This document shows positions 5,195-6,202 of a DNA stretch of 10,282 nucleotides, one piece after another; position 1 is the first letter of the stretch, and each line of letters starts with the position of its first letter. Where the stretch lies: the NCBI GenBank assembly GCA_003663695.1, contig QMUB01000018.1:1-10282 (forward strand). The letters are read 5' to 3'. The notes beneath the pieces are model-generated. The model had not been told where the DNA came from. It did no database searches and saw nothing but the letters and a program-made list of their open reading frames with translations. The position numbers and the translations under genes were made by a program. This DNA is from Thermococci archaeon. GTDB taxonomy: Archaea > Methanobacteriota_B > Thermococci > Thermococcales > Thermococcaceae.

Positions 5195-5233
5195 TAACGC
5201 TTCACTGCTTATCCCGATGATCTCAACAGCACG

Positions 5234-5246
5234 AAATTTTTAAAAC
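5234..5246 (+). promoter_or_regulatory. TATA-box promoter for the C/D box RNA and the CDF gene
   Basis: AAATTTTTAAAAC is a strong archaeal TATA candidate. A start about 25-27 bases downstream of its centre falls at about 5266-5270, exactly at the predicted 5' end of the C/D box RNA. No second promoter is evident between the RNA and the CDF start at 5342, so both probably use this one. Confidence 0.6.
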
Positions 5247-5266: not shown

Positions 5267-5324
5267 GCCCGATGAAGAATTCAGCCTTACCTGACTCATG
5301 ATGAAGGAGTGACGGACTGAGGGT
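5267..5324 (+). ncRNA. C/D box small RNA, predicted to guide 16S rRNA 2'-O-methylation at two sites
   Basis: The elements appear in the right order and spacing. C box CCGATGA is at 5269-5275 (one or two bases off RTGATGA), box D' CTGA at 5291-5294, a 3-base spacer, C' box ATGATGA at 5298-5304 (perfect), a 12-base guide at 5305-5316, and box D CTGA at 5317-5320. CCC before and GGG after can form a short terminal stem. The D guide (core GGAGTGACGG) is complementary over 10 bases to CCGUCACUCC of archaeal 16S rRNA helix 44. Counting five bases from box D gives U1406 (E. coli numbering). The D' guide (core TTCAGCCTT) is complementary over 9 bases to AAGGCUGAA near helix 27, giving G902. The 16S sequence is recalled, not aligned here. 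Such RNAs act with L7Ae, Nop5 and fibrillarin. Confidence 0.82.
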
Positions 5325-5341
5325 TCTCAAAAGGTGATCTC

Positions 5342-6202
5342 ATGGAAAGTGCATATAAGCCTCTCATGGCAAGTATCTTTGGGAATATCCTTCTGGCTAT
5401 TTTAAAAATCGCTATCGGGTTCATATACTCAAGCCTCGCTCTGATGTCAGATGGCGTCCATTCACTCTCCGATGTTATAACGAGCATCATTGGTTATTTT
5501 GGTGTTAAAATCGCCTCAAAGCCTGCGGATAAGAGCCATCCCTTCGGACACTCACGTTTTGAACCCCTGTTTGCATTCTTTATAGGTATGGCACTCTTCC
5601 TCGTGGCTTACGAGATAGGGAGGGACTCGCTGGAGAGAATGCTCTCAAGTTACGTGCTTGAAGTGAATGCACTGATGCTGGGTGTTACGGTGGTTTCAAT
5701 ACTTTCAAAGGAGGCAATGACCCGGTACTCCCTCAAGGTTGGAAGAAAGCTCAACAACCAGATACTCATAGCCGACGCTTACCACCACAGGAGCGATGCC
5801 CTAAGCAGCGTTGCCGTTTTAATAGGACTTCTGCTCCAGAAATTCGGTTTTTCATATGGAGATGCCCTGGCGGGCTTTATAGTAGCTCTCCTGATAGGAA
5901 AGGTTGCGGTTGAGGTTGTGCTCAAAAATGTGAGCTATCTAACGGGAACTTCTCCCCCCTTCGAACTCTGCGAGCGGATAAAGGAAACCACACTCAGCGT
6001 GAAAGGTGTTGAAGGTGTTCATGATTTGAGGGCTCACTATGTGGGTCCAAAGCTTCACGTTGAGCTCCACATAGAAGTTTCCCCGAAACTCACGCTGAAA
6101 GAAGCCCATGACATAAGTGAAGAGGTTAAGAACAGGATAGAAAATTTGGACGAGGTTGAAATAGCCTTCGTCCACGTGGATATAAAGGGAGTTACAGATT
6201 AG
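5342..6202 (+). CDS. Cation diffusion facilitator (CDF) family metal exporter, probably Zn-type
   Basis: A 286-residue CDF antiporter expected to export Zn2+ or a similar divalent ion in exchange for protons. Six membrane spans can be placed at about 9-30, 36-56, 75-95, 105-123, 150-167 and 172-193. The transport site is visible as HxxxD in span 2 (SDGVHSLSDV; H40, D44) and HxxxD in span 5 (YHHRSDALSS; H148, D152). This HD/HD arrangement is usual for zinc carriers rather than the aspartate-rich manganese type. The cytosolic C-terminal domain (about 205-286) is histidine-rich, with H227, H232, H239, H243 and H278 as possible metal ligands. AAGGTGAT at 5331-5338 precedes the ATG closely. The leader contains the C/D box RNA. 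The stop overlaps the convergent mfnA stop by 11 bases. The metal specificity is inferred. Confidence 0.92.
   Translation: MESAYKPLMASIFGNILLAILKIAIGFIYSSLALMSDGVHSLSDVITSIIGYFGVKIASKPADKSHPFGHSRFEPLFAFFIGMALFLVAYEIGRDSLERMLSSYVLEVNALMLGVTVVSILSKEAMTRYSLKVGRKLNNQILIADAYHHRSDALSSVAVLIGLLLQKFGFSYGDALAGFIVALLIGKVAVEVVLKNVSYLTGTSPPFELCERIKETTLSVKGVEGVHDLRAHYVGPKLHVELHIEVSPKLTLKEAHDISEEVKNRIENLDEVEIAFVHVDIKGVTD

Follow-up and report, generated by a model that had tools for sequence, protein, structure and literature searches.

The window, a 10,282-nt stretch of archaeal DNA (contig QMUB01000018.1 of the Thermococci assembly GCA_003663695.1), contains a C/D box RNA on its plus strand at 5268-5322, in the leader of a gene for a cation diffusion facilitator. 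The original prediction of such an RNA at this locus is confirmed: in a cmscan search, window positions 5268-5322 (plus strand) matched the Rfam family RF01309 (sR60) over its full length (model positions 1-55 of 55) at 63.2 bits (E = 6.3e-14), above the gathering cutoff of 50 bits that defines membership. Six further C/D families matched the same place, each below its own cutoff. The RNA family is already catalogued, and the locus is an ordinary, well-conserved member, which shares with the usual sR60 the full-length match, the boxes and the guide cores (91 of 91 copies read). It differs from the usual sR60 in that the window copy lacks a tandem sR1 RNA and in that 21 nt separate the end of its D box from the cation-efflux start codon. 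The features of the locus are listed below; the promoter-like stretch, boxes, spacer and 12-nt D guide were read from the sequence.

5232..5245, plus strand: CGAAA-TTTTTAAAA, resembling a BRE/TATA element, about 25 nt upstream of sR60
5268..5322, plus strand: sR60 C/D box sRNA (RF01309 match, cmscan)
5268..5270, plus strand: 5' strand of the terminal stem, CCC, pairing with GGG at 5321-5323 (25-genome alignment)
5269..5275, plus strand: degenerate C box, CCGAUGA (AUGA invariant in 25 of 25)
5280..5288, plus strand: D' guide, positions +11 to +3, complementary to 16S 900-908 (h27); predicted Gm902
5291..5294, plus strand: D' box, CUGA
5295..5297, plus strand: D'-C' spacer, CUC, 3 nt
5298..5304, plus strand: C' box, AUGAUGA
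5305..5316, plus strand: D guide, 12 nt
5306..5315, plus strand: paired part of the D guide, positions +11 to +2, complementary to 16S 1403-1412 (h44); predicted Um1406
5317..5320, plus strand: D box, CUGA
5321..5323, plus strand: 3' strand of the terminal stem, GGG (25-genome alignment)
5332..5339, plus strand: Shine-Dalgarno sequence AGGTGATC of the downstream gene (8-nt match, complement of the 16S 3' end)
5342..6202, plus strand: gene for a cation diffusion facilitator (Pfam), with sR60 in its leader

The four boxes, short D'-C' spacer and terminal stem expected of an archaeal C/D box sRNA are all present, and the box order (C, D', C', D), 3-base spacer and 12-base D guide proposed earlier are borne out by the sequence. 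The C box departs from the consensus at its first two bases. Other marks of such an RNA are also found: target bases stand opposite +5 on a 16S rRNA of the same genus, the guides are conserved together with their targets, and the genome bin encodes fibrillarin (PF01269, E = 1e-100). The terminal stem covaries. In an alignment of 25 genomes (23 distinct rows), its three pairs were paired in 98.6% of cells and 25 cells were changed on both sides; in 500 control shuffles, neither of these two values nor the covariation score was matched once. The number of pairs showing two-sided changes did not exceed that in the shuffles (203/500), and the number of further pair types behaved likewise (335/500).

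Position of sR60 in the cation-efflux leader

We take the stretch at 5232-5245 to be BRE/TATA-like by comparison with the archaeal consensus; lying about 25 nt upstream, it suggests that sR60 is probably the first element of its transcript. The motif TTTAAAA is present upstream in 13 of the 16 copies shown from g1 and g6 (the genus of the window and one other), and one of the remaining three is incomplete. The open reading frame (ORF) at 5342-6202 matches the Pfam families Cation_efflux (167.8 bits) and ZT_dimer (74.6 bits), and the other flank of sR60 is a 144-amino-acid reverse-strand ORF with no Pfam match. Plasmid matches to the transporter were all below 60% identity in tblastn. A neighboring decarboxylase had its best matches in metagenome-assembled genomes of Thermococcus or Thermococci, in a scan of genome contigs from which near records may be left out.

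A cation-efflux ORF starts no more than 121 nt downstream of sR60 in 24 of 25 genomes, the exception being G020. A pattern search located the start codon in 72 of 86 parsed copies, at distances of 2 to 143 nt, and four more starts were found by eye among the 14 failures, eight of which have something else downstream. The last two of these, in G084 and G096 (loci L217 and L218), retain only a C-terminal piece of the cation-efflux gene, interrupted by stops, next to an intact sR60. In g1 and g6, sR60 stands alone in the leader, and where the pattern search placed the start codon of the transporter (13 of 16 copies), it lies 9 to 22 nt beyond the D box. A separate Shine-Dalgarno sequence of 6 nt or more was not found in 8 of these 16 copies, seven having the GAGG of the stem only and one having none; in those seven, the sRNA stem and the Shine-Dalgarno sequence share the GAGG letters, and the window has a separate Shine-Dalgarno sequence. 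Overlaps and short distances between sRNAs and genes have been reported, with 5' overlap lowering reporter transcription (PMC7994747, available sections).

Complementarity of the guides to 16S rRNA

The only small-subunit rRNA gene in the genome bin of the window lies on contig C132 (minus strand, 371-2149, 1,779 nt). It is 73.6% identical to the 16S of a genome of the same genus (G001), to which six other family members are 95.3 to 96.7% identical in the same alignment, and it carries extra insertions, one of which adds 62 nt between positions 890 and 891 (E. coli numbering). On both grounds it was rejected as foreign and hence as the RNA's own target, and the guides were tested on the 16S of relatives instead. 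The C132 gene keeps the D' target but has no D target, and relying on it would have led to a wrong rejection of the D guide. A 23S gene was not found in the bin.

On the G001 16S, the D guide pairs over 10 bp and the D' guide over 9 bp, the lengths that had been predicted. Alignment with the E. coli K-12 16S places the D target, CCGUCACUCC, at 1403-1412 with U1406 opposite +5, and the D' target, AAGGCUGAA, at 900-908 with G902 opposite +5, so both proposed sites, in h44 and h27, were correctly numbered. Among the 21 family genomes with the RNA, 16S and 23S in hand, the h44 site is the best D guide match in all 21 (10 to 11 bp), and the h27 site is the sole best D' match in 16. The D' target is less certain than the D target and is ambiguous in some genomes: the D' guide also pairs over 8 bp with a second 16S stretch (about 1016-1023) on G001, and in five of the six g2 genomes examined, the h27 site and a competitor, near 1016-1023 or elsewhere, both give 8 bp (the h27 figure of G008 was taken from the separate 91-copy pairing count). 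With G-U pairs allowed, D'-h27 pairing extends over 12 bp in 14 copies, 11 in 48, 10 in 3, 9 in 19 and 8 in 7, and the 12 bp of G010 were reached by 0 of 3,000 shuffles. As a guess at the genera, g1 is presumably Palaeococcus, g2 Pyrococcus and g3 to g5 Thermococcus.

Chance matches were assessed with mononucleotide shuffles of each guide against the G001 16S and 23S, counting Watson-Crick pairs only. Shuffled D guides reached 10 bp in 31 of 4,000 cases (best match in 16S, 11/4,000), and shuffled D' guides reached 9 bp in 149 of 4,000 (best match in 16S, 46/4,000). The D match is therefore unlikely to be accidental, and the D' match taken alone is only modest; both matches become firm because they are conserved over 91 copies.

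This conservation is extensive. sR60 scored above the cutoff in all 25 Thermococcaceae of a first sample; a wider search of 94 Thermococcaceae genomes gave 90 above the cutoff, and 73 of 74 good-quality Thermococcaceae genomes have a match. In the 94-genome search, G075, G082 and G093 gave no sR60 match and G108 only a weak one; G082, G093 and G108 are 53 to 75% complete, and G075 is 98% complete in 210 contigs. The 90 genomes yielded 91 copies, five of which fell outside the search pattern and were read by eye; these enter the position counts and not the 86-copy neighbor counts. Positions +3 to +11 of the D guide are invariant in 91 of 91 copies and +2 in 90 of 91, with variation at +1, which faces C1402 and is unpaired, and at +12. 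In the D' guide, +4 to +11 are invariant in 91 of 91, and +1, +2, +3 and +12 vary. The invariant blocks are almost exactly the rRNA-paired ones. A compensatory guide change was not seen, and the target strings are constant in the 21 family 16S sequences scanned. Four of the copies read by eye have T at D +1, and the fifth (G109) differs at D +2; in the sR60 of G074, the D' box reads CGGA and the C' box GTGAAGA.

Outside the family, sR60 scored above the cutoff in 0 of 16 non-Thermococcaceae genomes of the class, and in three sister-family 16S sequences one to three of bases 1409-1411 differ, 1409 in each. On these two results, the guide to U1406 would seem to be characteristic of the family Thermococcaceae. 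Matches below the cutoff were present in 7 of the 16 genomes. The four sister RNAs that were read (L027, L028, L030 and L031) are likewise of the C/D type and have another D guide, and these matches were rejected as sR60 on that account. The sister D guide, GAGATGGGCGGT, fits C1402 in 3 of 3 sister 16S sequences tried, of which only G037 comes from a genome whose RNA was read, and no good 16S site was found for the sister D' guide.

Predicted guided methylation and its alternatives

We favor, with a probability of roughly 0.86, a model in which a TATA promoter of its own drives transcription of sR60 at the head of the cation-efflux mRNA leader, and the RNA is trimmed to its terminal stem and assembled into an RNP that guides the formation of Um1406 and Gm902. 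By analogy with the general archaeal mechanism, L7Ae would bind the k-turns at C/D and C'/D', and Nop5 and fibrillarin would join. Pairing of 16S 1403-1412 to the D guide and of 900-908 to the D' guide would direct fibrillarin to 2'-O-methylate U1406 and G902. Within the usual limits of the two helices, each target strand finally becomes part of a helix (h44 or h27), so pairing would have to precede their final folding, and it may also help to order that folding. These decoding-region targets are credible. If both sites are methylated, the Thermococcaceae would carry, besides the widespread Cm1402, a lineage-wide ribose methyl at U1406, in the portion of h44 close to the A site and to the subunit interface.

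The published modification data speak weakly against this model. Neither Um1406 (U1380 by offset) nor Gm902 is among the 44 modifications of the Pyrococcus abyssi 30S model as given in the available parts of PMC7005279, where Table 3 has neither site, Table 2 covers acetylcytidines only, and the text contains no 1406, 1380 or 902. This absence counts for little, since the model is at 3.2 Å and only three ribose methyls are noted in those parts (Am373, Cm1376 and ac4Cm250). A P. furiosus RiboMeth-seq data set is deposited as GSE153501 (PMC7758197).

An alternative is that only the D guide works, producing Um1406, with the D' guide serving as a holding arm or directing modification near 1016-1023 (h33 region). 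We consider this unlikely. The 16S contains the string AGGCUGAA at two places, the second of which gives 8 to 9 nt of pairing in 91 of 91 sR60 copies when G-U is allowed, and D' sites tie in five of the six g2 genomes examined. The base at D' +3, however, discriminates between them, since the h27 site has A900 and the second site has C: it is U, which pairs with h27 only, in 83 of 91 copies, and the h27 pairing reaches 11 to 12 bp in 62 of 91 (G-U allowed).

Much less probable still is that sR60 acts mainly in cis, as a k-turn in the leader through which L7Ae binding or trimming controls the transporter. It has been noted that certain predicted snoRNAs close to 5' ends might act in cis (Jager 2014, PMC4247193, available sections), and the proximity of sR60 to the transporter ORF (within 121 nt in 24 of 25 genomes), together with the 9- to 22-nt spacing (13/16) and the 8 of 16 copies without a separate Shine-Dalgarno sequence in g1 and g6, fits such a role. 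However, the invariant letters are the rRNA-complementary ones, the distance to the gene varies from 2 to 143 nt among 72 copies, the window's own leader has a separate Shine-Dalgarno sequence, and sR60 is kept where such an ORF is missing (G020) or reduced to a C-terminal remnant (G084 and G096). The reading of the locus as an accidental C/D-like motif whose rRNA matches are also fortuitous, for which only the modest D' result (149/4,000) could be cited, is refuted by conservation: the RNA exceeds the Rfam cutoff in 90 of 94 family genomes, its guide cores are invariant, and its stem covaries.

Cm1639 and Cm1703 of yeast and human 18S rRNA are directed by guide snoRNAs and resemble the predicted Um1406 in being 2'-O-methylations on the 5' strand of h44. 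They differ in position, corresponding to E. coli 1402 (PMC7005279, Table 4, among the parts available), which in Thermococcaceae is fitted by sR1 and not by sR60. Double guides to nearby rRNA sites are known in archaea, and a chaperone role has been proposed for them (Dennis et al. 2015, PMC4644070, available text); the idea that one RNA could coordinate two sites, suggested for this locus by the original prediction, has appeared in general terms as that chaperone proposal. sR60 resembles these RNAs in that its two guides target rRNA regions that lie near or face each other. That survey differs in covering seven species with no Thermococcales (Table 1) and, in its available text, not naming U1406: the h3/h18/h27 region is the densest in predicted sites, and predictions in h44 are sparse, with A1408 and G1494 named (E. 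coli numbers).

An sR60 with a Um1406 target was not found in the literature searched; U1406 is not named among the matches listed, and this target was not found named in the available portions of PMC2584109, PMC7994747 and PMC4644070. The targets may nevertheless have been predicted before, as the 2000 Pyrococcus sRNA paper and snoRNAdb, mentioned in the available text of PMC7994747, lay outside the search. In the accessible part of the T. kodakarensis circular-RNA table (PMC9014305), no entry was matched to sR60.

Tandem arrangement with sR1

sR1 (RF01152) lies directly upstream of sR60 in 17 of 25 genomes and elsewhere in 7 of 25, as judged from Rfam matches; the sR1 cutoff was passed in only 6 of 25 genomes, and location and guide sequence served to assign the rest. 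An sR1-like 3' end falls no more than 170 nt upstream of sR60 in 63 of 86 parsed copies. In the genome bin of the window, which is 78% complete, sR1 was not found. Both are C/D RNAs directed to the same 16S neighborhood, and they differ in their guides. In all 20 genomes scanned, the D' guide of sR1 pairs over 9 to 10 nt (one G-U) with 16S 1400-1408 or 1400-1409, with C1402 opposite +5, and its D guide pairs over 8 to 9 nt with the 16S 3' end (CGAUCACCU), with C1533 opposite +5 by alignment count. C1402 corresponds to Cm1376 of P. abyssi, identified by cryo-EM and mass spectrometry (PMC7005279, available text), and the fall of the sR1 D' guide on this published Cm serves as a check with which our method agrees.

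The predicted footprints of the two RNAs on h44 overlap (1400-1409 for the sR1 D' guide, 1403-1412 for the sR60 D guide), so the sR1 and sR60 RNPs could not bind together and would act in turn. As h27, h44 and h45 surround the N-terminal part of eL41 (PMC7005279, available text), the sites are in one neighborhood. We tentatively suggest, as a possibility that we would not yet favor, that sR1 and sR60 form a decoding-center methylation unit, in which the RNPs work turn by turn and chaperone the rRNA and U1406 is an added methyl. The RNPs of such a unit may keep h27, h44 and the 16S 3' end from closing before the subunit neck is ready, and methylation of U1406 may be a Thermococcaceae addition to the widespread Cm1402. 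With its overlapping footprints, the sR1-sR60 tandem would be a simple system for ordered C/D RNP action in 30S assembly and would also suit tests of archaeal C/D RNPs as folding chaperones; it is the part of this work most deserving of experiment. The sR1 D guide (loci L161 to L184), with its predicted site at C1533, also covers the start of the anti-Shine-Dalgarno region.
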